A stretch of DNA of 64,000 bases, from contig CALMIR010000079.1 of the NCBI GenBank assembly GCA_937864265.1, forward strand, positions 38,732 to 102,731, in the 5' to 3' direction. Under the pieces are notes generated by a model that ran no database searches, was not told where the DNA came from, and saw only the letters and a list, made by a program, of their open reading frames with translations. The position numbers were made by a program, and so were the translations under genes. Of this stretch, positions 5,684 to 46,975 are shown piece after piece (the first letter of the stretch is position 1; each line of letters starts with the position of its first letter). Source of the stretch: an uncultured Saprospirales bacterium. Lineage in GTDB: Bacteria > Bacteroidota > Bacteroidia > Chitinophagales > Saprospiraceae.

Positions 5684-5718
5684 AAACCTGCCAGCAGGTC
5701 AAGCTAGCTGGCAGGTTT
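5684..5718. terminator. Bidirectional terminator hairpin
   Basis: A perfect 12-bp stem (AAACCTGCCAGC / GCTGGCAGGTTT) with an 11-nt loop lies between the convergent fucosidase and MACPF-like genes. The A/T ends on both sides let it act as a terminator in either direction. Confidence 0.8.
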
Positions 5719-5740: not shown

Positions 5741-8700
5741 TTAATCATCAGAAGACACATTCAAAGTGCCGAAGATGATCATATCGCCCGGTGCGTAGGC
5801 AGAGGTCAGGTCGATCAAATTGCCTGCCGGAAATAGAATACTCTCCAGCGCAAACAAGGAAACCGAACCGAACTGAATACTAGTAGAATTCGTAATAGGC
5901 CCAGGCAGATCGGATGCAGCAAAGGAATTGAGTTCATCCTGAATGCGCGATTTAGCCTTGCCCGTACACATGCCGCTGATGCTCGTCACCGTCAGGGTTG
6001 GCGTGATCTGGGCCGTATTTGGATTCAACTGAACCGTTTGTGTCTTTCCGCTTCCCGACAAGGCAAAAGGTACGCCAAAGCCAACCACAATATTGGTGTC
6101 CATGTGGGCAGAATTCCAATGGGTCCATTTGGCACGGTACATCGTTGTGGTGGTAGTTTGAACAGAAAAATCCTGGTTGTTGTGTGCTTCGTTGTAGCTG
6201 GCGCTCATCATACCCGCTGATGTACCTTTAAAGGTCATACCCGTAAAATCAATGGTCACTGCATTACTGGAAGAGCTTACCCGCCAGTGATCGCCAGGAG
6301 GAACATTGATGGTAATCGCCCCTCCGGTTAGCTGGCCGTAATAAGCACTGGCCGGGCCAGTTGCACCCGGTGACGGAGCTACGGCAGTCACCGCAAACCC
6401 GTTGGGGTTGTTGGCTGCCTGGTAGCTTTTTACAAAAATATCCTGGTACAAAATCTTGGTATTGATCATCAGGCTCACATCCTGCCCATCCGGGATGGGG
6501 TTGGGTACCAGCGTGGAAGGATTGTTCAACAAACCATCACTGCCTGTGGCAATGAATATTTGCAATACAGCAGGCCCATTATTAGGCGTCAGGGTATTGA
6601 AAGTAAAAGTATTGGGCGTCAGCGAGGGCAATAGCTGGCCGCTGAGATTGGTCAAGTCAATGATATTGATGGTAAAAGCGATGTTGTTGTTGGCCATCCA
6701 TTGTTCAATACCGATCGGAAAATACTGGTTATTGCCACTGATCGTGATATTGCTGGTGTTGAAAGCCCCTTTTGCCAGGTTGAGGATCACGCTCATTTGA
6801 GAGTTAGAAGAAGAACCGCCATTGACTACACCAGAAAGCTTATCCAAAGCAACCGAAGCATTGAGGTATTGGGGTGGAGATACCGGGGTCGGATTCGTTG
6901 AAGTAGGTGGTTGATCTATCCAAAAAATCGCATTATTGTTTACCAAAATGGAAATCAAGTCTGCGCAAGCACCCGCGAAGGAAACCCCATTTCCACCTAC
7001 CGTATTGACCAGGCTATTCAGCCCACTGACGTAGGCAGCAGGGATTTGGTTGCTGCTCAACAAGCTTTTGATAATTGAAATATTCACACCCCCATAACCA
7101 TAAAACAGTTTCTCCACCTGCATGGTCAGGGCTACGTTGGTGGTATTGTTGGATTGGAACTGTATTTCAGGCGCACCCAAATCCATTGCAAACTGCGTGA
7201 TGGTAGAATTGCCCCCTGCTTTTTCCACTGATGAAAAGAAAGTGGTCAAAGGGATATTGTCCGTAAAATTGGTACCCGCGTGGTTGTTGCTGGTCCATTG
7301 ATTGGCCAGTATTTGGTTCACCTTCGATTCCGTCAGGTTGAAAACAGCATCCCAGCCATTCATGATGGTTCCCCCATTGTACATCGCCGACAGGATTTCC
7401 GCTTCAGTTGGTGGTGCTGGCGCAGCAGCATCCAATGCCAATACCTTAAATTTGGCGGTATTGATGGCTTCTTCACTCATTCCGGCATCGACCATCCGCC
7501 GAATATTGGGTGGCAAATACCACATACCGTACAAGCTTAAAGTGATATCCACCGTTGTAGCACCGCCAAAGTCAATGCCCGCATTAAAGGAAACATCCGG
7601 TATGGCAATACGCCACTGGGAAAAGGGGGTGATGGGTGAAATGTTCGGCCCAAAAGGCAGATTACCCGTTGCAGGGCCGCTAGGACATGGCCCGGATTGC
7701 CCGGTCTGGCAAGTCAGGAATAGAAAATCAAAAAAGCGGGATGGCGTATGGAAAGTCATCACATTGCCATCTTTGTTGCGATCCCAGAATGGATGGCCGT
7801 CATAAGACAAATCAATCTGGTATTTACCACTACCGGTTGACTTAACACCGGAAATATCGGCCACTACCTGATCGACCCGAACCAAATCGAAGCCTGCAAA
7901 TTCAGAAGCAGACAGCGGTATCGTAAAAGCGAAAGAATTGCCGTTGAGCAAAGACATGACCGGAACGCCTTTCACGACATACTGAACAGGCTGATTGCCC
8001 GGATTGAATGGATGGAAATAGGAAGAATTGTTCGCTATGCCCGCCAAGATATTCGCATTTTCAGCGACGATCACTTGAGACAAGCTCACCAAATCAAAAT
8101 CGGTAATAGAAACAGGTTGTGATTCTGGATACTCGTATTGGATCGCGCTGTTTTGGAGCATCAATATCCTGGCCAACATGGCCCCCATCCTTTTTTGGCT
8201 GGACAAAAGCGTGCTGGTCAAGCCCATCAAATCAACGGTAGCAGGATCAACACTGCCACCGCCGTTTGTGCTGGTGGTGCGGGTCGTTTGGCCATCGGAC
8301 TGGGACTGGCATTTAAACGGCAGTTTTCCAAAATTGGCCGCCTGCTGCTGGCTCAATTGCTGGCGTTTCTGGTTCAGGTAAATTTCTGTTACCAGTTGCT
8401 GCAACTGCGCCTGAGCCGTCACTAAGGCTTGCCCGCGAATGGTCAAGATATTGAACCCATTGATCAAGTTATTTTTAGCCACCGTCACGCCGTTATCGTT
8501 GATGCCGGCCAATTGATTGTTGATCGAAGTGTTAAAGTTGGCGCTGAATTCCTGCCACTGCTCAGACGACATGGTAGAAACGCCGTTTGGCCCCAGCAAA
8601 TGCAGGGTATTGATGGCATCTTGGATATTGCCGAGCGACTGATCCATATTTTCAAAGGTCTGAATGGCTTTGATCAGTTTTTGCAAATCCTGAGCCACCG

Positions 8701-10996
8701 TGATCAAATCCTTGATGGCCGTGATAACCCCCGTTTCTGGATTGGCAATATCTTTGGCCAGTGAAAAAGTATCGGTTGCTACAGAAACGATGCTTTTCAA
8801 AATTTCCATCGTTTCATAATTCTCCACAGCATCTTTCAAAGAACTGACCAGCCCGCCTACTACTCCCTGCTGTAAAGCCAGCGATTGGGAAAGGGTAGAA
8901 ATATTGCCCTGTAACTGCGTCAGGCTATTCTGCTGGCTCGCAATAATCGAACCATAATAATCGGCGGAAAGCTGCTCATTTTCCATCTGTGCCTGGATCA
9001 GGCAGGCTACTTCATTGCCGGTTGCAGCAATGGCCTTTTCCAATTCGTTGAAATCTTTGACCAATTCCTCTTCTAGTTTGCGGGCACTGATCTGGTTCTG
9101 TATGCCGTCAATCTGCGTTTGTATATCCGAAAGCGCATTTTGCAAGCTATCGCTCATTGGTGTATAGGCCGCAAAAGTCAGGAGCGGTACGGAAATCCCC
9201 TGGAAGCGCAACTGCACAGCAACCCGGGCAATGTAAAGTGCCCTCAATTTCAGCTCTGATAAGGTGTCGGACGTATCCGAATCCCAGTTGCTGCCGTATT
9301 GGATAGAACTTGTAGGAGCTGGAATGGCACTAGCTACCCACCCCAGGTAATCCAGGATTAAGGGCTGGCCAGCCGCCTGTGCCGTCCCAGCTTGAGCATC
9401 CAGGATGAATTCGGAAACGGTCAACGAAAAGTCAATGTTGGTTGCAATACTGGGGAGCGTAGCCACCTGAGGTGTATTGCGCACCGTGCCATTCAGTACT
9501 ACGGTTGACTTGCCAGGATATTGGGTGCTGTTTTGCAAGCCATAATTAAAGCCATCGACAATGGTCATGGATTTGGTACCCGAAGTATTGTTGATGCTCA
9601 GGTTGCCGATGAAGTATTGGCAAGCCAATTGCAAAGAATCGTAAGCCTGATCGCTGAGGGTGATGGTCGCATCGTTGTTGGCCGACATATCAAAGGTATG
9701 GGCAATTAAGGTAACTGAGCTACCCGGGCTGGCAAAACTATCCGCGTTGACCATTTGCATGACCTGAGCCATCAATAAGAAATCCTGCACCTCATCTGGC
9801 ATCACGACGGTAACTTCAGAAAGGTCAATTTTCTCTTTATAAACATTAATAGAGGTAGTAGCCAGGTAGGAAATCAGGCCCGACAAGACATCGCTAGGGA
9901 ATATACTGTCATAATCATATTGGGCGATATTTCTAAAATCGGGGGAAATGGTATTGCCATATTTGGCATAGGCGAAGGATTTAAAAATGCGATTGCCGAC
10001 CATTTGCGTTCGGAAAGCCATCAAATCCAGTACTTCCGTCAGCTCCAAGGCGATGGGCACCACCTTAGTAAAGGTAGAAAGGTTGACGTTTCCCAAAAGT
10101 TGCATGAGGATGCTGTTGATGGAAAAGTTGCTATCATTCCAATCGCCATTGACTACGCTTTGTGCAAAAGCGGCATCATTGCTCATGATGTTGAGCAACC
10201 CGACTTGGGTAGCATAACCAAAAGTGTTGTTGCCTACTTGGTGCTTTGGATTGGTGTAAACTTCAAAGGAAAGCGCCTGAAGACCATACAACTTATCGGG
10301 ATTGGCCTTGTAATAAGCCGAGATGGTTGCATAGTCGCTGGCATTAAAAGAAAAAATCTGGTAGATCACATCGCCTGTGGTGACTTGCGAAACATAGTGT
10401 GAACCATAGCGATTGAAAAAATCCAGGAAGTTTTGGATGTCTGCGGTACCCAGATTGCCCATGATTTTGCCTAAGGCGCTGAGGCTTACCGGGCCAGTGC
10501 CCAAGTTTTTTTCCAGACCCTGCACAGCAGTATTAAAATCAAACGCATACTGACTGCTGATGGCCGCGTTGCCGCTATAGGGATAGTTTTGGGTGCCTTC
10601 GTTGCGGGTAATGGCGATAAAGGCATAGCCCCCGTCATCCTGTGAAAGATCAATGCCAGTCAGGGTTTTGATACTGGCGATACTGGCCGCCTTATCGGTA
10701 TCGTTTAAAATCAGGGATCCGGCGGGCAGAGATGCGGTGTCGCCCGATTGGAACAAGACGTTGTAGTGGTTCAATTGACTGAGTAGTTCCTCGGCGGTGT
10801 CGCAAAGGGTGATTTCCAATTGCCCCCAAGAGGTGCCGTTGTTGTTCAAGTCAATGGCTTTGGTATTCAAAGCCTGTACGGTTGCAGCGTATAATGGGGT
10901 GGCTGATGGAGACGAAGCATCCCATACAGATTGAAACCCATTGATCAAAAAGGAGGTAGCGCCCAGCGAAAGGGAGGGCGACGGAGTTGGTGCCAT
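5741..10996 (-). CDS. Giant MACPF-like pore-forming protein (MACPF-A)
   Basis: This 1751-aa protein has no signal peptide. Residues 1 to about 430 look like a MACPF/perforin fold: the signature region FFNRYGSHYVSQVTTGDVIY (YGSHY at 197-201) matches the MACPF pattern Y-G-[ST]-H-[FY]-x6-G-G, except that the last Gly is Asp (GD, 208-209). About 600-900 is a long helical, Gln-rich, coiled-coil-like region. From about 915 on, the protein is low-charge, Asn/Thr/Ser-rich and probably beta-structured; ITPFSQWRIAIPD near 1128 recalls jelly-roll domains of insecticidal toxins (weak, by eye). The first 900 residues are homologous to the 903-aa MACPF-B upstream. A three-copy palindromic repeat separates the gene from the rest of the cluster. 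Likely role: a large pore-forming toxin or prey/host-binding protein, exported without a Sec signal or released by lysis. Confidence 0.6.
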   Translation of the reverse strand: MAPTPSPSLSLGATSFLINGFQSVWDASSPSATPLYAATVQALNTKAIDLNNNGTSWGQLEITLCDTAEELLSQLNHYNVLFQSGDTASLPAGSLILNDTDKAASIASIKTLTGIDLSQDDGGYAFIAITRNEGTQNYPYSGNAAISSQYAFDFNTAVQGLEKNLGTGPVSLSALGKIMGNLGTADIQNFLDFFNRYGSHYVSQVTTGDVIYQIFSFNASDYATISAYYKANPDKLYGLQALSFEVYTNPKHQVGNNTFGYATQVGLLNIMSNDAAFAQSVVNGDWNDSNFSINSILMQLLGNVNLSTFTKVVPIALELTEVLDLMAFRTQMVGNRIFKSFAYAKYGNTISPDFRNIAQYDYDSIFPSDVLSGLISYLATTSINVYKEKIDLSEVTVVMPDEVQDFLLMAQVMQMVNADSFASPGSSVTLIAHTFDMSANNDATITLSDQAYDSLQLACQYFIGNLSINNTSGTKSMTIVDGFNYGLQNSTQYPGKSTVVLNGTVRNTPQVATLPSIATNIDFSLTVSEFILDAQAGTAQAAGQPLILDYLGWVASAIPAPTSSIQYGSNWDSDTSDTLSELKLRALYIARVAVQLRFQGISVPLLTFAAYTPMSDSLQNALSDIQTQIDGIQNQISARKLEEELVKDFNELEKAIAATGNEVACLIQAQMENEQLSADYYGSIIASQQNSLTQLQGNISTLSQSLALQQGVVGGLVSSLKDAVENYETMEILKSIVSVATDTFSLAKDIANPETGVITAIKDLITVAQDLQKLIKAIQTFENMDQSLGNIQDAINTLHLLGPNGVSTMSSEQWQEFSANFNTSINNQLAGINDNGVTVAKNNLINGFNILTIRGQALVTAQAQLQQLVTEIYLNQKRQQLSQQQAANFGKLPFKCQSQSDGQTTRTTSTNGGGSVDPATVDLMGLTSTLLSSQKRMGAMLARILMLQNSAIQYEYPESQPVSITDFDLVSLSQVIVAENANILAGIANNSSYFHPFNPGNQPVQYVVKGVPVMSLLNGNSFAFTIPLSASEFAGFDLVRVDQVVADISGVKSTGSGKYQIDLSYDGHPFWDRNKDGNVMTFHTPSRFFDFLFLTCQTGQSGPCPSGPATGNLPFGPNISPITPFSQWRIAIPDVSFNAGIDFGGATTVDITLSLYGMWYLPPNIRRMVDAGMSEEAINTAKFKVLALDAAAPAPPTEAEILSAMYNGGTIMNGWDAVFNLTESKVNQILANQWTSNNHAGTNFTDNIPLTTFFSSVEKAGGNSTITQFAMDLGAPEIQFQSNNTTNVALTMQVEKLFYGYGGVNISIIKSLLSSNQIPAAYVSGLNSLVNTVGGNGVSFAGACADLISILVNNNAIFWIDQPPTSTNPTPVSPPQYLNASVALDKLSGVVNGGSSSNSQMSVILNLAKGAFNTSNITISGNNQYFPIGIEQWMANNNIAFTINIIDLTNLSGQLLPSLTPNTFTFNTLTPNNGPAVLQIFIATGSDGLLNNPSTLVPNPIPDGQDVSLMINTKILYQDIFVKSYQAANNPNGFAVTAVAPSPGATGPASAYYGQLTGGAITINVPPGDHWRVSSSSNAVTIDFTGMTFKGTSAGMMSASYNEAHNNQDFSVQTTTTTMYRAKWTHWNSAHMDTNIVVGFGVPFALSGSGKTQTVQLNPNTAQITPTLTVTSISGMCTGKAKSRIQDELNSFAASDLPGPITNSTSIQFGSVSLFALESILFPAGNLIDLTSAYAPGDMIIFGTLNVSSDD

Positions 10997-11308
10997 GTGT
11001 TGAGTTTTAGGTGTTTAACTGATATAAAAACTGGTTCTAACTGCCCTGCGCAGGGGTGGTATGGAAATCCTATGGTGCATCCATGCACTTGGTCAGTTAT
11101 AGAAAAAATTTGCTTGTTTTGATCCACTTCATCGGCACTGGCTTAGCGGCAAATGCAGTAGCCAAATCACACATCTAGCTCAGAAAATGTTGTGAACCAT
11201 TTGAATAAACTTAGGTAAAAAGGAAACGAAACTTAGGAGTGAAACGATTGCAAATATAGGTATAAGCCAGCTACATTTTACCATTCATTTCGATTTATTT
11301 TTGATTTA
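10997..11308 (-). promoter_or_regulatory. Leader/promoter region of the giant MACPF-A gene
   Basis: This 312-bp stretch without a gene lies between the giant gene's ATG and the tandem repeats. On the minus strand it has a TATATTTG box (11251-11258) that fits the Bacteroidota -7 pattern TAnnTTTG, without a clear TTG partner. Nearer the gene are a perfect 12-bp palindrome CCCTGCGCAGGG (11044-11055) and a small hairpin GTGCAT-CC-ATGCAC. These could structure a long 5' leader of about 240 nt. This is inference from pattern only. Confidence 0.35.
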
Positions 11309-11667
11309 ACGCAGAAAAATTAAACTTCCCGATTTGTCCTTACCCTAGCGGGCTAAACGGTTCATTTTAAGTGTGTCCGCTAGGGTAAGGACTTTGATCA
11401 ATCGGGAAGTCATTTTTTGCACACTACTAAGGCAGAAAAATTAAACTTCCCGATTTGTCCTTACCCTAGCGGGCTAAACGGTTCATTTTAAGTGTGTCCG
11501 CTAGGGTAAGGACTTTGATCAATCGGGAAGTCATTTTTTGCACACTACTAAGGCAGAAAAATTAAACTTCCCGATTTGTCCTTACCCTAGCGGGCTAAAC
11601 GGTTCATTTTAAGTGTGTCCGCTAGGGTAAGGACTTTGATCAATCGGGAAGTCATTTTTTGCACACT
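11309..11667 (-). repeat. Three perfect tandem copies of the ~120-bp palindromic element
   Basis: Three copies with a 121-bp period start at 11312, 11433 and 11554 and show no differences between them over the shared element. Each copy read on the minus strand runs TAGTGTGCAAAAAATGAC, then TTCCCGATTGATCAAAG, then a 15-bp stem GTCCTTACCCTAGCG, a loop, the returning CGCTAGGGTAAGGAC, and ends AATTTTTCTGC. Almost the whole element is an inverted repeat. The third copy overlaps the last codons of the pentapeptide/methyltransferase gene. Perfect identity suggests recent tandem duplication, and the stacked hairpins may block transcription between the two halves of the cluster. Confidence 0.9.
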
Positions 11668-13108
11668 GCATTAATACATAAAAAGCAGCAATGCCTTTGT
11701 GGCTGATTTTGACCCGCTGTATGACCTTGGCCATTGCTTCCAGCCGTGCCGGGTTCAATACAGAAGGCGTGAGGCTGCACACGATCAACTGGCCATTGGG
11801 CTGGAGTATGCGTAAACCTTCCTGAATCATTTTTTCTGCTTCCGCAGGGCTAACTACGGCTTGGCCTGTGGCCCTCAGAATCACTACATCAGCTTTGATC
11901 GCTCCCAAATCAAGCGCGTTGCCGACTTGAATATCGGCCTCAGGAAGCTTCTCAGCCGCTTTAGCCACCATTTCAGGGGCAATATCGCGCCCCATTAAAT
12001 GAAGAGAAGGTTTCAGGGCATGCAATTGCTGCAAAACCAGCCCATGCGAACAAGCAACATCGATGACGGTCTGCACCCGACTCAACTGATCTTTCAGGTA
12101 ATCGCAAATCAGGTCGCTTACCCATTGTTCATCGAGCATCATTTGCCCTAGTATTTCCTGCGCTTTTTGATTCCAGGCATCGACCTTGATGGTTTGTTGT
12201 GGCGGATAGGGCCAGTAGATGGCTTGTATGGATTCGAGCGTCGGAGGAGGGCACTTTTCACCCAATACGCTGATAATAGCTGTTTGTTGGGTGGGGTATT
12301 TGTGATCCATTTGATGGTCGAGCAGCTTAGCCCGAATATCTTGGGCAGCAATCAAGTTTTGCCCCTTGGTGGTGGCATAGTAGGAGGCTTCCTGGCTATA
12401 AAGCATGGCAAAGTTTTGGGGCAAAATGGTCTCCCAAATCAAGGCATCCAAGGGTACATTGGAAAGGTTTTCCTCAAAGCTTAACCCCCATTTCCGAAAA
12501 TTGGACTCCAGCCCCGAATCCGGGTTAGATTGGCAAATTTTGTCTATCCATTTTTTAAAAACCAATGGCAGGTCTTGCAAGCTTTTTTGCAACACATCTG
12601 GTTGGATCGTTTCATCAGCAATCAACTGGGCTATCCGGTGCTTTTCTGCCGACTGACCCGCGTGCTGGCTCAAAAAAAGCCCTATGAGTATCCGGTTGGC
12701 GCCAATATTAAGCCCCCTTTCCCATTTGATGTCGGAAAAAAAGCAGCCCTCAGTTGCTAGGCCACGCACATCTGCTGCATCCAAAATAGCTTGCTCGATG
12801 ATGCAATGGATAAATTGGGCTTCCTGGAGTTGGGCATGAGTAAAATCAGTTGCTTTGAAGATGCAATTGAAAAAAGAGCTACGAGATAAATCGGCCTCCC
12901 GGAAATTGGCTTTTTGAAAGCGGCAATTGGAAAAACGATAGGCTTTTATATCGCTGGAAGAAAAATCCGTTTGGAAGAAAAAACAGGCATCCATGGATTT
13001 GGACAAAAAAGCATCGCTCCGAAATCGGTTTCCCGGCAAGGCAGGAACGGCCAATTCTATTTGGGTTAGCGCTGTCCGAATTTCCGCCTCACTCCGCTTG
13101 TTCTTCAT
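11609..13108 (-). CDS. Pentapeptide-repeat protein fused to a SAM methyltransferase
   Basis: This is a 499-aa protein. Residues about 25-125 are pentapeptide repeats with central Phe/Leu (CRFQKANFREADLSRSSF), a fold forming a right-handed four-sided helix. A helical linker follows, then from about 335 a class I methyltransferase core: TVIDVACSHG (motif I, with Cys-Ser-His in place of the usual glycines), MGRDIAPEMV and LQPNGQLIVCSL. The ATG overlaps the TGA of MACPF-B by 4 bp, so the two are translationally coupled. After FYVLM the frame runs into the palindromic element: the last 18 or so residues (QCAKNDFPIDQS and on) and the TAA stop are element DNA, so the original C-terminus was probably changed. 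Possible roles are modifying, protecting against or assembling the MACPF proteins; the substrate is unknown. Confidence 0.65.
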   Translation of the reverse strand: MKNKRSEAEIRTALTQIELAVPALPGNRFRSDAFLSKSMDACFFFQTDFSSSDIKAYRFSNCRFQKANFREADLSRSSFFNCIFKATDFTHAQLQEAQFIHCIIEQAILDAADVRGLATEGCFFSDIKWERGLNIGANRILIGLFLSQHAGQSAEKHRIAQLIADETIQPDVLQKSLQDLPLVFKKWIDKICQSNPDSGLESNFRKWGLSFEENLSNVPLDALIWETILPQNFAMLYSQEASYYATTKGQNLIAAQDIRAKLLDHQMDHKYPTQQTAIISVLGEKCPPPTLESIQAIYWPYPPQQTIKVDAWNQKAQEILGQMMLDEQWVSDLICDYLKDQLSRVQTVIDVACSHGLVLQQLHALKPSLHLMGRDIAPEMVAKAAEKLPEADIQVGNALDLGAIKADVVILRATGQAVVSPAEAEKMIQEGLRILQPNGQLIVCSLTPSVLNPARLEAMAKVIQRVKISHKGIAAFYVLMQCAKNDFPIDQSPYPSGHT

Positions 13109-15816
13109 GCCATAGATTGCTTTAAGAGGGAATACACGCTGCTTATTCTTTGATAAAGTTGATCGTGAAAATGGGAAATTTCCATTAAAGTGTCAACAGA
13201 TTGTACGGATGCAGCCCCATCAGTAGCCAGAAAGTCCATTTGCTGTTGGTGCCTACTTTCGTAATACGACCAACTATTTCTGTAATGACTGTACCAAAAT
13301 AACCTGGCTCGAATAGCCATCAAGTGCCGAGCGGATTGAATCATATGATGAAACGCCTCCACTGCGTTTTCCAGCAGCTCCTCCAAGGAGAAAAAAGCGT
13401 CAGTTTTTATTTCTTGCTGCACGAGTAGTCGAAAATATTCCGTCAAGGATTGCCAGTCTTTATCCCGCAACCAAACGATGCCGTTGCGACCCAAGCCTTG
13501 CAAAATGGCGGCTGTGCCTGCTTGCGATTCGCCAGCTTTTGTCAAAGCAGCCAAATCAGCCATCAGGTTTTGTAAGTGTTGTATATTTCTGAACCAGGCG
13601 GCGGCTTCTTTGTTGGCATGCTTTTTATCAAAATCCCTCGAATGATTGGATTGAAGACATGTAAGTGCCTGTTGAAAGACCTCATCCAGCAAGGCGGAAT
13701 GAGCCTCAGCAGGTAAACGGTTTTCCAACTGCTGCAGGTATTCACGAAATTGTTGTAGCTGCTGGTTTAAATCCCTTTCAGCCATCTCGGCAGTTGAACC
13801 CATGTTTTGAATACACTCCTGCAGCTTTTCTCGCATTAAGTTGCGGGCATTTTCCAGCGCTGCGTAATCTTCCAGCATAGATTTCACTTGTTGGCGAAAG
13901 GCCGCTAGCCATGTTTGCCTTTTCCCATCGTCTGTATCTGATTGTTGGATATGAAACCATTGCTGTTGGATGGCTACACAGTGCTTGAGTCTATCTCTAT
14001 TTGCCTGCTCGATAATATCAACAAAGCCTTGTAAAAGATCCCCCTGCTCTCTGCTGATTGCTGGCCATTCTATTTTGGCCATCACCCTAGCCAGTGAATG
14101 GGCTTGCAATTGCCAAGTTAAAAATGCCGCATCAGCCTTCAAAGGCAAGCCGCAAAGCCAATTCAGGTATCGGCTGACCCATATTCTATGCCCACCCGGC
14201 GCAGGTGTCCTGTTTATATCTAGTATGCTTTCTGCCATTAATAAGGTATGCTCCCAAAAGGAGGTTGGCGAATCTATTTCCCGGACAGCCATAGCTGTCT
14301 TGATTTCGCTACAAAGTTGCACCTCTTTTACCGATGGATCAGCCGAATTGCTGAGCATCTGATACCGAAAACCATCTGCCAAGGTAAAAGCATCGCCTGT
14401 GGATTCATTGATGATATGCAGCACTCCGTAGAAATCCTCGCAATGGATTTGCAGGGAATGGAATGCCCGATCGCTTAATAGAATTTCAACAGGTTTGTCC
14501 TCAACGATGATCGCATGGGCCACGATAGTTATCTCATCGCCAGGTAATCGAATGGCATGCTCTGATTTCAACTGAAACAAGGGGCTGGACAAACACAATT
14601 TTGTAATTGTATCCGCTTCCGCAAAACAAAGATTTTCGGCTTGCAAAAGGTCTTTAAAGCCATAATAATTGCCTTTTGTATGGCGAATGATCTGGTGGTT
14701 AAAGTTTTTTTGAGTTGGCAACTCCAGGGGTAGATTGGGAAAAAGTATATCTGCTTTTGATCCGTACTTATTGAATAACAGTGCCTTAAAAATCCTGTTG
14801 CCCTTCATCTTTAAAGCGGGTCGGGTAAACCCCAAAATCTCGGACAGTTCAAATCCGACGGGAACCAGGTGCTCAAATGCTTGGAGGCGACCTGCTTGGG
14901 CGGCGCAATTAAAAATGCTATTGCTGCCAATGGCTGTATCCATCCAATGCCTAGCTGTTACACGTTCCAAAAAGGAATCATCCTGACTTTTGATGCACAA
15001 GTGACCGATTTGTGCGGCGTAGCCTGTTGTTTTTCCCGAAGAAACTTGAACTGGGGTGGTAAATTTTCTAAAGGACAGGATGGCTGCGCTATTGAATGAA
15101 TCTTTGTGCTTTTGGTACAAGTTTTTTATGCTTGCAAAAACGGCTGCATCGTAGGCAAAAATTTGGTAAATCACATCGCCAGTGATGACCTTCGATACAT
15201 AATGGGTGCCGTATTGATTAAAAAAGTCTATGAAGCGTTGAACGCCACTGGCATCCATCCCTTGCTGCCATTTTCCATCAGCAGCCTGATAAAAGGCACC
15301 GCCATTTAAAGCCGATTGTAGCTTTACCAGTTCCCTCCTCAGCGCATGGCTCATGACTTCATTTTTATAGAAAAGGGCATTGCTAAAGCCCAGCTTTTCA
15401 ATGGCCGGATGGTTCAAGGTTTGGCTGATTCTGGAAAGTTTTAGTAAAGCATACTTGGTATCCGGTTTTCCCAGATCAATGCCCGTTTCCTGAAAAAACT
15501 GCCCCAGCGCGAGGGTTGATCGAAGGTCATCCGCCAATAAAGCGCCAACAGAAATGGCCGAGGCATCGCCAGCGTCCGCTAATACTTTGTAAGGGAATAA
15601 CTTTTCAAATAAAACCTCTCTGGAATCACATAAGTCCAGTTGTAGCGGCCCCCAGGCACTTACTTCACCCGTGGTATCGATAGGAAATGGCAAAAATTCC
15701 TGTTTGGGAGAGGGATAAAACGGCCAATGCCCTGGGTCGGAAGCATGCCACACAGCTTTGAATCCATGCAATAAATTGGCGGTAGAACCGATGCAAAAAG
15801 AGGGAGCTGCTGGCAT
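13105..15816 (-). CDS. MACPF-like pore-forming protein (MACPF-B)
   Basis: This 903-aa paralogue of the first half of MACPF-A has no signal peptide. The N-termini align (LLHGFKAVWHASDP against LINGFQSVWDASSP), and so does the MACPF signature FFNQYGTHYVSKVITGDVIY (YGTHY at 202-206, again GD instead of GG at 213-214). The last 300 residues are helical with coiled-coil character, and a DKDWQSLTEYF stretch matches SEQWQEFSANF of MACPF-A. It lacks the roughly 850-aa beta-rich C-terminus of MACPF-A. It starts 27 bp after the sulfotransferase stop and overlaps the next gene by 4 bp. The pair might form a mixed pore or a binder/pore-former couple; this is inference. Confidence 0.6.
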   Translation of the reverse strand: MPAAPSFCIGSTANLLHGFKAVWHASDPGHWPFYPSPKQEFLPFPIDTTGEVSAWGPLQLDLCDSREVLFEKLFPYKVLADAGDASAISVGALLADDLRSTLALGQFFQETGIDLGKPDTKYALLKLSRISQTLNHPAIEKLGFSNALFYKNEVMSHALRRELVKLQSALNGGAFYQAADGKWQQGMDASGVQRFIDFFNQYGTHYVSKVITGDVIYQIFAYDAAVFASIKNLYQKHKDSFNSAAILSFRKFTTPVQVSSGKTTGYAAQIGHLCIKSQDDSFLERVTARHWMDTAIGSNSIFNCAAQAGRLQAFEHLVPVGFELSEILGFTRPALKMKGNRIFKALLFNKYGSKADILFPNLPLELPTQKNFNHQIIRHTKGNYYGFKDLLQAENLCFAEADTITKLCLSSPLFQLKSEHAIRLPGDEITIVAHAIIVEDKPVEILLSDRAFHSLQIHCEDFYGVLHIINESTGDAFTLADGFRYQMLSNSADPSVKEVQLCSEIKTAMAVREIDSPTSFWEHTLLMAESILDINRTPAPGGHRIWVSRYLNWLCGLPLKADAAFLTWQLQAHSLARVMAKIEWPAISREQGDLLQGFVDIIEQANRDRLKHCVAIQQQWFHIQQSDTDDGKRQTWLAAFRQQVKSMLEDYAALENARNLMREKLQECIQNMGSTAEMAERDLNQQLQQFREYLQQLENRLPAEAHSALLDEVFQQALTCLQSNHSRDFDKKHANKEAAAWFRNIQHLQNLMADLAALTKAGESQAGTAAILQGLGRNGIVWLRDKDWQSLTEYFRLLVQQEIKTDAFFSLEELLENAVEAFHHMIQSARHLMAIRARLFWYSHYRNSWSYYESRHQQQMDFLATDGAASVQSVDTLMEISHFHDQLYQRISSVYSLLKQSMA

Positions 15817-15843
15817 TATTCACGTTTAAATGAACAGAAAACA

Positions 15844-16890
15844 TCAAATGGTACTGGCGTTTTTCAAAAGCTTATACTGTGGCTGCGCCCAATGTTTTGC
15901 AGCCTCTTTGACTTCCAGACTAGCACTGGTTCGCTTTCGTTCGCTGTCTTTTTCAAAGATTTGTGCCTTTTTATTTTTGGAATAGAATTGGCTGACCTCC
16001 AACATTGCATGGGCTTGTTTGCCGCTTATTGTTAGGCCAAAGTGTGGCGCGATCGCAGAAAAGAAAGCGCGGGGCAGATCGGCATAATCAACGGCCAATC
16101 CTTGTTGGCTGAGATTGGAAAGTGCAGCGCTTATCATTTGTGCAATGACCTTTGCGCCTATCTCTTCACGGGGCATTTTTTCAATATCAAGCGGGTTCAA
16201 TTGCAATTGTTTGGCGAGGTATAGCGGCTTGTTGTGTTGATGGAGTCGCATCGAAAAGGGGCCTTTATCTTCCTCGTTTTCAAACCAGGAAGCCATGATT
16301 TCCAATGGATCCCGATATAGAAAAATCCAGGGTACATCTGGAAAAGCTTTCCGAATGATATCTAAATGAAAAATGGGAAATTCCTGAAATTTGATGAATA
16401 GCTTTTTTTTGCGGAAGCCCATCGAATGAGCATGCGCCAGCACGAGCGCTTTAAACCTTTTGGCGACTAATGCTTCATCTTCGCAAATCCATTCATTCTG
16501 AAATAAGATATTGGAAATGCCCGATGGCTCACTGATAACCAGTAAATCTTCCAGCACTTTCATCATTTGGGTCACTAAAGTAGAGCCACATCGGGAGAGG
16601 TGAAATATAAATCCACCTACGGGAATATGAGGCGTCGCAATGATGTGATGGAGTAAAGGATCGAGCAAGAAGCCCTTTGTCGCATAATCTGGTTTTTCTC
16701 CCATTCTGACCATCGGATCGGGCGCCATAAATGGGTTGTCAAATGCTTCCAGGGGGAGCGCTGCGAATTTTACGAAAGGTTGCTGGTTCAAGCGGGTTAT
16801 CCTCACCGGGAAAAAGCCTGTCAAATCCGGCAAATCATGATAGGGATGCGGGCTATTCATGTCGTGTGGGTTGAAGGTCGTATAATGCAT
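15844..16890 (-). CDS. Sulfotransferase-family protein
   Basis: This 348-aa protein is a PAPS-dependent sulfotransferase by motif. HLSRCGSTLVTQMM (about 97-110) is the 5'-phosphosulfate-binding loop, and WIFLYRDPLEIMASW near 190 is the 3'-phosphate-binding strand with its Arg. The first ATG in frame is at 16890; a longer reading would need a TTG at 16941. The ATG lies at the foot of an 11-bp perfect hairpin, which could control its translation. Its neighbours are the TIR-TPR-SDR fusion (77 bp upstream) and MACPF-B (27 bp downstream). It could sulfate a protein, lipid or polysaccharide; the acceptor cannot be predicted. Confidence 0.75.
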   Translation of the reverse strand: MHYTTFNPHDMNSPHPYHDLPDLTGFFPVRITRLNQQPFVKFAALPLEAFDNPFMAPDPMVRMGEKPDYATKGFLLDPLLHHIIATPHIPVGGFIFHLSRCGSTLVTQMMKVLEDLLVISEPSGISNILFQNEWICEDEALVAKRFKALVLAHAHSMGFRKKKLFIKFQEFPIFHLDIIRKAFPDVPWIFLYRDPLEIMASWFENEEDKGPFSMRLHQHNKPLYLAKQLQLNPLDIEKMPREEIGAKVIAQMISAALSNLSQQGLAVDYADLPRAFFSAIAPHFGLTISGKQAHAMLEVSQFYSKNKKAQIFEKDSERKRTSASLEVKEAAKHWAQPQYKLLKNASTI

Positions 16891-16927: not shown

Positions 16928-16967
16928 GACTTAATGATCAATAACTTACAATACAGCTCCTCGACGA

Positions 16968-19673
16968 TTATTCCTCCTCTTCAAACTGCGCCCGTCCGGA
17001 GCGATCAATCAAGGTGCTGCTGGCTTGCTGTACGCCCTGCATCACGATGTCCAATATGTTGACATGCGCGGGTTGGCTGGCGATGAAGAAAATGGTTTCG
17101 GCTACATCGCGGGCATTCAGCGGTTTAAAATCTTCGTATATTTTAGCCTTGTCGGCATCGCCATCAAAACGCACCAGCGCAAATTCAGTATCTTCTACAT
17201 GAGCAGGCGATATTTGGCTCACTTTGATGCTGTGGCGCACCAGATCCAAGCGCATGCTGCGGGTAAGGGCATCGACGGCAAATTTGGTGGCGCAATACAC
17301 ATTGCCATCAGGGTAAACCTCCTTACCTGCCGTTGAACCGATGTTAATGATATGTCCCGATTTGCGGGCTACCATACCTGGTGCTACTGCTCTGGTCACG
17401 TATAGCAAGCCTTTTACATTGGTATCAATCATTTCCTCCCAGTGTCGCAATTCGCCTTCCTGTATGGGTGCTAAACCTTTAGCTTTGCCCGCATTATTGA
17501 CCAAAATATCAATTTGCTGCCATGCTTCCGGCAGCGCTTTCAAACTAGATTCTACCGCCTCCTGGTCTCTGACATCAAAGTGCAGGGCGCATACCTCTGC
17601 GGAAAAATCATCTTCTAGTTCTTCTTTGAATGCTTTGAGTCGATCCAGCCTTCTTCCAGTGATGATCAGGCGGTAGCCCATTTCTGCAAATATGGCAGCC
17701 GTAGCCTGCCCAATGCCCGAAGTAGCACCGGTAATCATCACGGTGATGTCATTTTTGGGCATGGCCTCTTCTTCCTCTTCGGCTTCCAGGTGCTGCACCA
17801 ATTGTTCGGCCTGTTCTTCCTTGTTACGGAGCAATTCTTCCAGGCGGTTGATGTTTTCTTTCAGCGCTTCGATGGTATCAAATCCCAGTCCCGCATGAAC
17901 CGATGGCGCCGCACTGGTTTTTATCACTTTGGCCAAACCAAAAGCCTCGTCATTTTGTGGCGTTTTGAATTCAGGATTGATTTCTACGGATTTCAGATAG
18001 GCTTTCTGGGCTTTGCCCTTCTCCCCAATTTGGTGGTAAAACAGCGCCAGATCATAGTAGGCAAAAGGGTGTTGTGGCTGTAAGTCCAAAACATCTTTCA
18101 AGTAGCCGATGGCTTTTTTGGGTTTACCCAAGGATTCGCCCAATAAAAGGGCATAGCGGTACATGATTTCTGGGTTGCTCTCGTTTAATTTAGCGGCCTT
18201 TTTCAAATATTTAGCGGCCTGCTTTTGCTGGTCGGGGTATTGATCGGCTAAAATAACCCCCAAACGATAATAGCCATTGGGGTAATGCGGATTGAGTTCT
18301 ACCAACTGGCTGTAATACGCCTGCGCTGCATCGTATCTGCCCCGAAGTTCTTCTAATTCGCCCAACAAGAAGAGGGCATCCGGATTGATCGGCGATTCCT
18401 GCATCAGAGGTTGCAGTATTTGCAAAGCGCCTTCTATATCCCGGCCTTCCTGAGCTACCATTACGCCATAATGGTAGCGCAGCAGCGTATTTTGGGGCTG
18501 ATCTTCCAAAGATTGCGCCATGAAGGCCAAGCCCTTTTCCGTTTGACCGCTATTGAAATACTCCAGCGCTTCTTCTACCACAAGGGCTGTTTGGCTTTCA
18601 AAGTCTTCTTCCCCCTCTTCATCATCGTCGAATTCTTCGTCTGAGTCCTCTTCCTCCTCCACTTCATCCATATCAACCGGCATTGCCACCTCCTCTATCT
18701 CTTCCATCTCATCGCTTTCTTCCTCTGTGACCCCTTCGTAGTGTCCTTCTTCTACCGTACTGTCACCCGATCCAGATTGCCCGATTTCATCTGACATATC
18801 CAATACATCTTCTTCCTCCTCCTCTTGACCAAAATGCTGTAAATCGGCCCCATCCTGGGTTTGCAGTGGCATAGAGACGACCTCATCGCTTACCTCTGAG
18901 CCGTATGCCGCCAATTCTTCAGGCGTGGTAAGTTCCTCTTTTTCATCCGAATGTTGGCCCGCGCCTTCATCCGGCAATAATTCGATTCCAGGTATATCAG
19001 ATAAATCTAGTTCTGGCTCAGATGGATCGGGGGTAACTATACTGGGTGTTGCAAAATCGGTAGTCAATACAGCTTTGCTTTTGAATTCCAGCCACTGCCC
19101 GTGGTCGTTGTTGAATTTAAAGAATGCTTCGTAATGGTTGGCCATGAGGTGCTCCAAAGTCATGTAATTGATTCCGCGCAGCAAACGCAGGTATTCCCCA
19201 GCCTCGCTGGATATTTCCCGCATGACCTTGAGGTGCGCGTTGAACTCTTCATCGTTGATGTCTTGCAATTGCCTTTTTTGTTTTCTCAAATCCAAGTACT
19301 GATCTTGCCAGTAATTGATGTACTGGATGATATCGCTGACTCTTTCAAAATTGGTCGCTACTGGTACCGCTGAACCATCGTCTTCGCGGATGATGCCGGG
19401 CGTGATAATGGGCAAAATCAAATGTCTTTTATCTTGAAGTAGCCGCAGGCCATGATTCATACACTGGGCTGATTTCAAAAAATTATCGCTGATCAGCAAT
19501 AGGATGGGAAAAGACTGCTGAAGCAATTGATCAGACAAGGACGACTGAACGCTGGATCGGTTGCAGGGATAGTGCTGAAAACGATAAATCGATGGTTGGA
19601 GCTCCCGCTCGATTTTCTGGGCGAAGTCTTGGTTTTCTGCGTGATAAGCAATGGCAATGTTTCTGGTACTCAT
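16968..19673 (-). CDS. TIR-TPR-SDR fusion protein
   Basis: This single uninterrupted 901-aa frame joins three known folds. Residues 1-130 resemble a TIR domain: NIAIAYHAENQDFAQKIE (box 1), ILLLISDNFLKSAQCMNHGL, then LILPIITPGI. The Glu that NAD-cleaving TIR enzymes need after this Cys/Trp position appears to be Gly/His here. About 200-365 is a very acidic Glu/Asp linker. About 370-590 holds six or so TPR repeats, followed by a short coiled coil (IEALKENINRLEELL). About 640-895 is a complete classical SDR: TGATSGIG (648-655), NNAG, Ser780, Tyr793 and Lys797, closest by eye to the YdfG-like NADP enzymes. It starts 5 bp after the TlpA-like gene. The TIR and TPR parts probably scaffold or sense, while the SDR keeps its catalytic residues. 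Confidence 0.75.
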   Translation of the reverse strand: MSTRNIAIAYHAENQDFAQKIERELQPSIYRFQHYPCNRSSVQSSLSDQLLQQSFPILLLISDNFLKSAQCMNHGLRLLQDKRHLILPIITPGIIREDDGSAVPVATNFERVSDIIQYINYWQDQYLDLRKQKRQLQDINDEEFNAHLKVMREISSEAGEYLRLLRGINYMTLEHLMANHYEAFFKFNNDHGQWLEFKSKAVLTTDFATPSIVTPDPSEPELDLSDIPGIELLPDEGAGQHSDEKEELTTPEELAAYGSEVSDEVVSMPLQTQDGADLQHFGQEEEEEDVLDMSDEIGQSGSGDSTVEEGHYEGVTEEESDEMEEIEEVAMPVDMDEVEEEEDSDEEFDDDEEGEEDFESQTALVVEEALEYFNSGQTEKGLAFMAQSLEDQPQNTLLRYHYGVMVAQEGRDIEGALQILQPLMQESPINPDALFLLGELEELRGRYDAAQAYYSQLVELNPHYPNGYYRLGVILADQYPDQQKQAAKYLKKAAKLNESNPEIMYRYALLLGESLGKPKKAIGYLKDVLDLQPQHPFAYYDLALFYHQIGEKGKAQKAYLKSVEINPEFKTPQNDEAFGLAKVIKTSAAPSVHAGLGFDTIEALKENINRLEELLRNKEEQAEQLVQHLEAEEEEEAMPKNDITVMITGATSGIGQATAAIFAEMGYRLIITGRRLDRLKAFKEELEDDFSAEVCALHFDVRDQEAVESSLKALPEAWQQIDILVNNAGKAKGLAPIQEGELRHWEEMIDTNVKGLLYVTRAVAPGMVARKSGHIINIGSTAGKEVYPDGNVYCATKFAVDALTRSMRLDLVRHSIKVSQISPAHVEDTEFALVRFDGDADKAKIYEDFKPLNARDVAETIFFIASQPAHVNILDIVMQGVQQASSTLIDRSGRAQFEEEE

Positions 19674-44155: not shown

Positions 44156-46975
44156 TCAAGTTAAGGCTTTTTTGATCTCAGATACGTTTTGCAGTTCCTG
44201 AAATAATCTTTGTATTTTTCTTTTTTTACTGAGCAAAGCATCTGCTAATTCTTTGTTGCCCTTATCGATGATACTTAACACAGGCACTGAGACATCGTTG
44301 CGGTCGTCATTATCGCGGGTAATGAGGATGATAGAGGTATTAAAGTCGTAAAGGGGGTCAATTAAAATTAGATTGAAATTGGATAGCTGAAAGTTGTCAT
44401 TGCTGGCATAAAGGTGAAATCGGTCTCCATATTTGGCTTTCAATTGCAATAGCTTTTTCAACCAAACTGGTGCAACGGGCTTTACCGTTTGGTATCTGTA
44501 CACTTCTATGGCTGCATCTTTATCAAGCACAAATTCAATGGTATCGTATAGCTTTTCGATCAATGACTCATTTTGTTTGGATACGTTTTGGGCTACTTCG
44601 CCAACAATATGTAATTCGTGCGCGGTTTTTCGATATAATTCAAAGAGGTAGTCAATAAATGGCTCGTTGTACTTGCCGTGGTAAGGAACTTGAAAGACTT
44701 GGGCGGTACTTTTGAAAAGAGGAACGATATCCGAGGTCTTTACTTTGAATAGCTCCTTTTTAAGAAAATCGGGAATCTCGATATGACTTCGGCGTTGGCC
44801 TAAAATTTGATAATTGTTAAGGGCTTGCCTTAGGATAGGTATATCCTTGAATCCGTGCCGGAATGCTTCCTCCAATAAGCGGATGATCTTTGAATCTGCA
44901 TCATTTACCAATGACGCATAACAGGCCGCATAGAAATACAACTCTCCATAATCGAAACGACGTGAAATTATTGTGTTCGCATTTAAAGCCCTTTTTTGTC
45001 TGAGGTAATTATCCGTGAATCCGACCAAGTGTAAAAAAGCATTTTCTTGAATTTGGTTAATCTTTTGGATAACTTCATTGGATAAGGGAAGTATGGCGGG
45101 AGCAGAACTCGCGCCTTTTATTTTCACCAATAGCTCCCGAGCGCCGACAATATCATTGTTGCTATTGGTGTACAGGTTGATACCACTAATTGTATCCGCA
45201 TACTTTTCAATAGAATTGATGAAAAAAATCGCATATCGGATCCGGGTTTCTGTTTTTACTTGCACATACAAATAGTTGCCAAAAAGTTGAGCCGAACCAG
45301 TAAGAGATGCCCCATGCAATATTTCAATCTTCACCGCTCCATTCGATTGAATGGTTAAAATATCTTTGGATATGGCTTTTCCAAAATGCCCAGCATCTTC
45401 GCGTTCTTCCGGAGTGAGGTGAAAGAGTTCATAGTTGCCCACCAAAAACTTCGGAATAGAACCTGATGCCGGAGTTTCAGCAAATTGTGGCAACCAATTT
45501 ATGATTTTGGGAATAGGCGAATCTTTATACTCCTCAAAAAAATGATCAATCTGGTATTTTTCGCACAATTGTTGATAGTGAGCACTTTCCCTTGCATGTT
45601 CGGTGGCTTTTAACGCCTCAAAAGGGGCTGATCCTGTATAGGGAATAAATACCTCCCGCCCCGCCCTTGGCCGACCCTCATAGTCCCATCCAAAGTAAAG
45701 TCCGTAAAAAATTTGGGGGTGGTTTTTATCGCTATTTTTTAAAAACACCTCGTACTCATCGCCCCGATTACCCCAGATATGAATGCAAGTCCAGCCATTT
45801 TTGGTAGTCAGTTTGCCCCGATAGTTGTAGTCTTCAATATGTACATTATCCTCTTTGTCAATGACGCGCAAGGATACCTTCCCCCTAACGATTTTTTCAG
45901 GGGAAATTTCATAAATGCATTCCCTAAGGTTGTGACCACTGATGCTTAAAAAATAACACTTATAGACTCCGTCCATGGTGCTTTCATCCGGGATTAAGTC
46001 GGTCAGTTTGCGAATGTTTTTTTGAGGAATGGTTAATCTCTTACCGGATAGGTGATGGAAAACAATTTCAGGCACCTCTTTTTCAAAAAAGTCAGCGATC
46101 TCATCTGCTGCATCTACCTTTTCCAACAATAGTTGCCCTGCAACTGGTGCCGTACCTTGCTTGTCCACCGCACAAAAAACACCTAAAGTAACTTCATTGT
46201 AAAAAAAGCTTCTATTGGGCGCGTAAAGTATCCAATGCGCTTTTTTAAGTTCCGTAAAATCAGCATAACAAATCTCTTCTTTTTCGCTCAAAGTGCCCAC
46301 ATATTGCTGATAAGCTAAGCCTTCCTCGCTCTTTATCTGCAATGTTAAGCTGGCGCTAAAAAAGTCATCTTTACTATTTAGGCGCTCTAAAATTAATTTC
46401 CCTTTTGTAATTTCTTTATTATCCGCCAAATAGCATTTGAAAAAGAAATTTGAATTTTGGAATACCTCAACCTTCTTAAATTCTTTTAATTGATTGTCAT
46501 ATTCGCCAAAAGAAATGTCGTTATTCAGATGATCTTTTAGTTGGCTTTTTACACGAAATTCAAAAGCGTTTTCTATATCAATGTAGCTAAATGGAATATC
46601 CAAAAACAATAAATAGTATTCTAAATAGGGGTCATCTACCTTTAGTTCACTTGGCTTCTTCGCCCTGTAAGCTTTCCAAATGTTAATGTATATGCATTGC
46701 TGATTAACGCGAGCTATCGTCCTGTTTTGTTTTTCGAGTTTATCTGTAATTTTTTCAATGAAAAAAGCACCCAATGTCTTCTGCTTGAATTTGCCAGAAC
46801 CATTGTCAAACAGGTGAAAAATCTTCACCTTATCCAAATTGTTAGGAATAACAGGCACATCATCCTTAATTCGGTTTTCATCGTTGTACTTTTGGATTAA
46901 ATACGTGAGAATATATGCCTGGAGTGGTCTGTAAATCCGAACGGACTTAAAATCTTCCTGTGCTGAACCTGCCAT
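44156..46975 (-). CDS. Unrecognised 939-aa protein with an internally triplicated beta domain
   Basis: This protein matches no family I know. It is AT-rich compared with yebC and priA and has no signal peptide or membrane segment. About residues 1-160 are helical (FFIEKITDKLEKQNRTIARV may be helix-turn-helix-like). Three similar units of roughly 110 residues follow, near 170-290, 335-450 and 515-630. Each starts with a cytosine-rich strand such as YKCYFLSISG, FKCYLADNK or YELFHLTPEE, has a (Y)xG turn, and ends in GxxxxxxxxGxPxAGRxLL-like text (PVAGQLLLEKV, RPRAGREVFIP, VGARELLVKI). The last 150 residues form another domain (EVYRYQTVKPVAPVWLKKL, NLILIDPLYDFNTSIILITRD). It is divergent from two small genes across 464 bp. 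Confidence 0.55.
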   Translation of the reverse strand: MAGSAQEDFKSVRIYRPLQAYILTYLIQKYNDENRIKDDVPVIPNNLDKVKIFHLFDNGSGKFKQKTLGAFFIEKITDKLEKQNRTIARVNQQCIYINIWKAYRAKKPSELKVDDPYLEYYLLFLDIPFSYIDIENAFEFRVKSQLKDHLNNDISFGEYDNQLKEFKKVEVFQNSNFFFKCYLADNKEITKGKLILERLNSKDDFFSASLTLQIKSEEGLAYQQYVGTLSEKEEICYADFTELKKAHWILYAPNRSFFYNEVTLGVFCAVDKQGTAPVAGQLLLEKVDAADEIADFFEKEVPEIVFHHLSGKRLTIPQKNIRKLTDLIPDESTMDGVYKCYFLSISGHNLRECIYEISPEKIVRGKVSLRVIDKEDNVHIEDYNYRGKLTTKNGWTCIHIWGNRGDEYEVFLKNSDKNHPQIFYGLYFGWDYEGRPRAGREVFIPYTGSAPFEALKATEHARESAHYQQLCEKYQIDHFFEEYKDSPIPKIINWLPQFAETPASGSIPKFLVGNYELFHLTPEEREDAGHFGKAISKDILTIQSNGAVKIEILHGASLTGSAQLFGNYLYVQVKTETRIRYAIFFINSIEKYADTISGINLYTNSNNDIVGARELLVKIKGASSAPAILPLSNEVIQKINQIQENAFLHLVGFTDNYLRQKRALNANTIISRRFDYGELYFYAACYASLVNDADSKIIRLLEEAFRHGFKDIPILRQALNNYQILGQRRSHIEIPDFLKKELFKVKTSDIVPLFKSTAQVFQVPYHGKYNEPFIDYLFELYRKTAHELHIVGEVAQNVSKQNESLIEKLYDTIEFVLDKDAAIEVYRYQTVKPVAPVWLKKLLQLKAKYGDRFHLYASNDNFQLSNFNLILIDPLYDFNTSIILITRDNDDRNDVSVPVLSIIDKGNKELADALLSKKRKIQRLFQELQNVSEIKKALT

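Follow-up and report, generated by a model that had tools for sequence, protein, structure and literature searches.

We have analysed a stretch of 64,000 nucleotides from an uncultured Saprospirales bacterium (GenBank assembly GCA_937864265.1, contig CALMIR010000079.1, positions 38,732 to 102,731; hereafter the window). It carries on its minus strand, in the order ST, B, MT, A, the open reading frames (ORFs) of a sulfotransferase-like protein (ST), a short MACPF paralogue (B), a pentapeptide/methyltransferase protein (MT) and a long MACPF protein (A). Our main finding concerns A, which is predicted to join four modules in one chain: a MACPF domain, a helical part like those of ClyA and the Tc toxins, a Tc-like beta-sandwich and a TULIP domain like those of P47 and OrfX. 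From these models we think it reasonably probable that A would attach to another cell's membrane and make pores in it, with B likely as its partner. A first-pass annotation of this DNA had reported a two-MACPF gene cluster; the cluster is real and the superfamily is right, and A itself is the more notable object. The novelty is a new architecture within known families.

Predicted architecture of the long MACPF protein

The gene of A and the predicted modules of its product are the following.

5741..10996, minus strand: A, 1,751 aa (ORF, full-length relatives, structure model)
9947..10975, minus strand: predicted MACPF module, A residues 8-350 (structure model)
10370..10408, minus strand: MACPF-type signature YGSHYVSQVTTGD, A residues 197-209, ending in GD
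9482..9859, minus strand: beta-rich part after the MACPF module, A residues 380-505 (secondary structure of the model; within the MPEG-1 alignments, which reach up to 503)
8126..9469, minus strand: long helical module, ClyA-superfamily/TcA-like, A residues 510-957
8669..8821, minus strand: candidate hydrophobic hairpin in the helical module, A residues 726-776 (hydropathy)
7520..8023, minus strand: beta-sandwich similar to the C-terminal TcB-binding domain of TcA, A residues 992-1159
5756..7357, minus strand: TULIP module like P47/OrfX, A residues 1214-1747

The protein begins with MAPTPSPSLSLG... and has, judged by eye, no signal peptide. Both large proteins had been taken for MACPF proteins at first pass. 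For B this holds by Pfam, with a PF01823 score of 24.6 bits over the cut-off of 21.5, whereas A, at 17.3 bits, falls under it and would not qualify on sequence alone. The predicted structure lends support to the assignment of A, as its model shows a MACPF fold at residues 8-350; a MACPF match at E up to 0.1 was also found in 18 of 20 family members. The canonical MACPF signature is (Y/W)G(T/S)H(F/Y)-x6-GG; its first half is present in both A and B of the window, and the final GG reads GD in all 27 aligned rows. The likeness to known MACPF proteins (MPEG-1/perforin-2, perforin, GNIP1Aa, Mpf2Ba1 and 3kk7 of B. thetaiotaomicron) lies in the predicted fold of A and the Pfam match of B, while A differs from them in this GD ending and in having some 1,250 additional residues, which are predicted to form other modules.

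With the ClyA superfamily (ClyA, Cry6Aa, Hbl/Nhe, MakE, AhlB, SmhA), which gave the best helical VIA rows, A would have in common a long bundle of helices, a stretch of which is moderately hydrophobic. This stretch (residues 726-776) has a positive mean hydropathy in 19 of 21 A-type rows, against one of six B-type rows, but its values are only moderate. Like TcA, A may have a helical part followed by a beta-sandwich similar to the TcB-binding domain. Tc toxins top the Foldseek list of the first model of A, and there is none among the 50 VIA rows of that model, an absence that excludes nothing. On the side of the differences, we saw in A no counterpart of the shell and receptor-binding domains of TcA, and a scan of 17 proteins of the window, with A and B among them, gave no Rhs-type TcB/TcC partner, no search for one having been made in the remainder of the genome. 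Some candidate matches were rejected. The best row of a PDB profile search with the helical/Tc-like part of A was a dehydrogenase (E 0.013), and a defence library matched LmuB to the helical part of A and mad2 to the methyltransferase part of MT, both of which we read as generic. A single-sequence search of solved structures gave no convincing match to A, B or ST.

The first-pass annotation had missed the C-terminal half of A. Two further modules are predicted there, and it is here that our interpretation is weakest. This half was modelled with low confidence (a predicted local distance difference test score, pLDDT, of 44) and has no Pfam or NCBIfam match, both of which weigh against it. The structural matches might then be artefacts of a poor model, and the half might have a family-specific fold unrelated to TULIP or Tc toxins. 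We hold this to be quite improbable, since all nine Foldseek rows with E below 0.001 are OrfX, P47, LBP, CETP or BPI (the next row has an E of 0.16), and a separate hhalign match, with controls, supports the assignment. With P47/OrfX, A shares the predicted TULIP fold and an N-terminal TNGWDxVF-type motif. It is different in that the TULIP module makes up the C-terminal part of a larger protein with a MACPF module and in that the Pfam P47 model is unmatched: PF06597 is absent from the matches of 12 members at E up to 10, and the own genome has none at E up to 1e-5. We have therefore classed the module as P47-like and not as P47. In a study on P47/OrfX, these TULIP proteins are described as separate genes beside toxins, their job unsettled; OrfX1, OrfX2 and P47 bind lipids in vitro, and most orfX-p47 clusters of one survey adjoin toxin genes (PMC7020563). 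The P47 genes of genome G390 had no toxin-like neighbour among three other proteins scanned there.

For a model of residues 1-1165, the top BFVD row was a protein of Mimivirus LCMiAC02 (A0A481Z1I0, 1,032 aa; E 6e-12 over 983 alignment columns), a structural match with low TM-scores (0.10-0.11) and an unproven placement of domains. Among the titles and abstract openings of the MACPF papers listed by our literature search we found no description of the four-module architecture.

Relatives and their genomic neighbourhoods

Protein searches, in which the best 7,991 (A) and 7,998 (B) candidates by word sharing were scored, returned at least five A-type and at least five B-type relatives besides the window's own. 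A profile search gave, among the matches listed, at least four rows, one of them new (P0013), and missed rows found earlier. A scan of species genomes by two patterns (relatives without both would escape it) yielded 10 loci among 45 matching stretches, namely six in the nitrifying bacteria Nitrosospira/Nitrosovibrio, one in a unicellular cyanobacterium, one in Pseudomonas entomophila and two in Saprospiraceae metagenome-assembled genomes (MAGs). Relatives were also found in 4 of 72,556 plasmid records (Gloeothece, two Undibacterium and one 15.6-kb Nostocales plasmid), the hosts of which span two phyla; there the A-type protein is annotated as 'hypothetical protein' or 'FliJ family protein'. 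No relative matched among phages, and of the 46 stretches of viral contigs that fit the patterns none was a relative. Counting the own genome, relatives are present in one of 298 genomes of the order, one of 60 close relatives and two of 296 of the phylum, with one further Bacteroidota genome (G515) carrying an A-type relative. The nearest homologues of ST, A and B all come from MAGs titled Saprospiraceae.

In a tree of 27 rows the B-type proteins form a single clade (six rows, support 100/100) on a long branch, the window's A groups with P0002, P0003 and P0013, and the remaining 17 rows form the rest. Seven of the 24 inner branches are open, and no supported branch unites the row of the cyanobacterial contig with those of the cyanobacterial plasmids. 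The scattered hosts, together with the carriage on plasmids, point to transfer between lineages. Two of the relatives are unusual in themselves. In G515 (C1:3142037-3142138, L033) the first ca. 35 residues of the A homologue lie in another reading frame, by frameshift or sequencing error, and in G772 the TULIP part of A is a free-standing ORF of 583 aa (C19, L052:403-2151), with the MACPF part (L012) on another contig.

This distribution bears on whether A is a weapon at all. It could instead be a large lipid-binding or adhesion/structural protein in which the MACPF and TULIP folds are used without lysis. Non-lytic MACPF proteins exist, and one of them, Astrotactin-2, is among the structural matches of A; the signature deviates (GD), and no membrane hairpins could be made out. 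We find this alternative unlikely, as the remaining modules of A look like pieces of toxins or of proteins whose genes adjoin those of toxins, and the presence on four plasmids with hosts in two phyla would fit a weapon better than a structural protein.

To see A in its surroundings we have examined 13 loci at which an A-type gene stands alone (L005-L010, L013, L014, L026-L029 and L041), in stretches of 8.5 to 25 kb (L007 being a whole short contig) and with matches accepted at E up to 1e-5. In none of the 13 was there a homologue of ST, of MT or a second MACPF homologue. That the four genes, proposed at first pass as one system, form a necessary unit is therefore not supported. A and B were found together in one further genome, the Saprospiraceae MAG ES-bin-93, although on different contigs. 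There, the ST homologue (L011, 74% identical) stands directly before B (46%), the contig ends inside B, and a second contig has at its edge a fragment of A of 294 codons (79% identical). The contigs of the A-type P0003 and the B-type P0011 have the same listed length of 10,939 bases, which suggests that the two may share one contig. A dedicated pore-forming system, as had been put forward, is in this sense supported as a prediction, by the modelled MACPF fold of A and the co-occurrence in ES-bin-93.

The short paralogue

It had been stated that A and B share their first 900 residues. BLASTP indeed aligns them over 889 columns at 25% identity (E 9e-81), but the likeness fades along the chain, from 35% in the MACPF module through 23% in the beta part to 13% in the helical part. 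B consists of a MACPF domain and a poorly conserved helical part, without the two C-terminal modules of A. Against P0002 and P0003, the window's A is 80-85% identical in the helical, sandwich and TULIP modules, 79-85% in the beta part and 75-78% in the MACPF module; against P0013 there is little difference between the MACPF, beta and helical parts (53-57%). The window's B, compared with its five relatives, keeps 59-63% identity in the MACPF domain, 37-42% in the beta part and 32-40% in the helical part. Considering these regional identities and the hydropathy of residues 726-776, the helical part of A would be under constraint, that of B much less so, and B seems to matter through its MACPF part.

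We consider B most likely to be the Saprospiraceae-side partner of A. The nearest worked example of such a long/short pair, taken as an analogy, would be CDCL-L/CDCL-S of Bacteroidota, likewise two paralogues, one long and one short, whose genes lie near each other. The CDCL proteins belong to the CDC branch and have about 500 and 365 aa, while A and B are MACPF proteins of 1,751 and 903 aa. In that system the long subunit serves as the platform, and it is the short subunit that makes up the polymer (PMC11169675).

A different role for B can be imagined, in which A alone is the complete weapon and B a truncated MACPF protein that blocks the ring of A in the producer, for self-protection or dosage. 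B does lack the two C-terminal modules and has a poorly conserved helical part, A-type genes occur without B at all 13 of the other loci examined, and the MACPF hairpin candidates of B are more charged than those of the window's A (19% vs 11%, 19% vs 9%). Yet lone A-type carriers manage without B, so that protection by it is not generally needed, and lone A-type rows are about as charged as B in the hairpin stretches, so that the charge says little. The best-kept part of B being its MACPF domain is compatible with contact with A in either role. On balance, we hold this blocking role to be unlikely, and favour B as a partner in the pore.

The same genome encodes a third MACPF protein (L040:4251-7475, G000:C187) of 1,074 aa, with the MACPF match at residues 664-890 (61.7 bits) and weak laminin-G and jacalin lectin matches. 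It is not among the own-genome relatives of B, which are A and B only.

Gene order and the accompanying enzymes

The other genes and the repeats of the locus are listed here.

11609..13108, minus strand: MT, 499 aa
13105..15816, minus strand: B, 903 aa
15844..16860, minus strand: ST, 338 aa from ATG
11307..11684, no strand: tandem palindromic repeat with a 121-bp unit, two complete copies and two partial ones, between MT and A
5685..5717, no strand: inverted repeat where A and the fucosidase gene converge, between their 3' ends (sequence)

The ORFs bear out the minus-strand run described at first pass (A of 1,751 aa, MT of 499 aa, B of 903 aa and the ST-like gene). Its tight packing is real for ST and B (27 bp apart) and for B and MT (4-bp overlap), but not for A, which stands behind a gap of 612 bp that carries the tandem repeat. 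The 121-bp unit forms a long hairpin (-53 kcal/mol, z -9.15). It is matched 120 times in the genome if pieces are included and both strands considered, several of these matches being at contig ends; the last 76 bp of the tandem array (the part at 11609-11684) lie inside the 3' end of MT. Because of this gap and the hairpin repeat, A is probably a separate transcription unit. Downstream, A and the fucosidase gene are convergent, and the inverted repeat between them is perhaps a two-way terminator; terminator-like matches are found at 5708-5690 and 5700-5685, such matches being equally frequent in shuffled sequences. Scans for sigma-70 promoters and terminators gave matches about equal to shuffles or fewer, and the Bacteroidota promoter pattern had 3 matches against 2.74 expected. 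In base composition the four genes (0.451-0.483) come close to the mean of the window (0.460), which gives no hint that they were imported recently.

MT combines pentapeptide repeats (PF00805, E 4.3e-11) with a class-I methyltransferase domain (PF13649, E 2.7e-11, residues 348-439), both over the cut-offs. ST scores 25.0 bits with PF13469 (Sulfotransfer_3), just under the cut-off of 27, and contains an SRCGST loop and an RDP motif. Its likelier start is the ATG at 16860 (338 aa) rather than the TTG at 16941, because residue 1 of the ES-bin-93 homologue (337 aa) is aligned with residue 28 of the longer form. The genome has an adenosine 5'-phosphosulfate (APS) kinase gene, so that 3'-phosphoadenosine 5'-phosphosulfate (PAPS) is likely made in this bacterium and ST could be active.

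The first-pass annotation had read the locus as a four-gene pore system in which ST and MT may sulfate or methylate a partner, a receptor or a shield. In favour of this, two genomes have ST immediately ahead of B, with 74% identity between the ST proteins, MT overlaps B by 4 bp, and PAPS is likely available. Nevertheless, we give this reading little credit. No ST or MT homologue lies near A in any of the 13 lone loci, MT was found in just one of 198 genomes of the class, its own, and ends within a dispersed repeat, and weak ST relatives (25-35% identity) occur in seven further genomes of the 198, with one more in the own genome, so that the sulfotransferase family is clearly wider than A.

Directly upstream of ST (16968-19673) is encoded a protein of 901 aa in which domains are combined in an unusual way, a weakly matching TIR_2 being joined in one chain to TPR repeats and a short-chain dehydrogenase domain. 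Elsewhere in the window, an ORF of 939 aa (44156-46975) has no Pfam match at E up to 1e-6.

Proposed mode of action

In the docking and perforation that we favour for A, the protein would be made in soluble form in the cytosol, as the apparent lack of a signal peptide suggests, and would leave the cell by lysis or through an injection device. It would then bind lipid via the TULIP module, gather into a ring through the MACPF module and insert its MACPF hairpins, perhaps together with the helical hairpin. B, without the docking modules, might add to or cap the ring, like the short CDCL subunit joining the long one, with ST and MT as passengers or modifiers. The own genome does contain a PVC/eCIS-like cluster (L039, G000:C57) with Pvc16_N, sheath and baseplate hub genes, a possible injection device. 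We considered it as the exporter of A and set it aside, as its contig is a different one and we saw no link between the cluster and A.

A bolder version is possible, which we offer only tentatively. A would be a double-pore machine, with a MACPF beta-pore, a ClyA/TcA-type alpha-pore and a lipid-docking TULIP domain in one chain, moved by plasmids as a single-gene weapon, to which Saprospiraceae would have added a short MACPF subunit to give a two-component complex.

Significance

Pore-forming toxins are divided into two types, alpha and beta. If our interpretation of A is true, one chain would link the MACPF, ClyA/Tc-like, Tc-sandwich and P47-like families. It would also suggest that the P47/OrfX proteins are membrane-docking aids of toxins, and the A-type genes would provide a single-gene, plasmid-borne system for testing in what sequence docking, ring formation and insertion take place.
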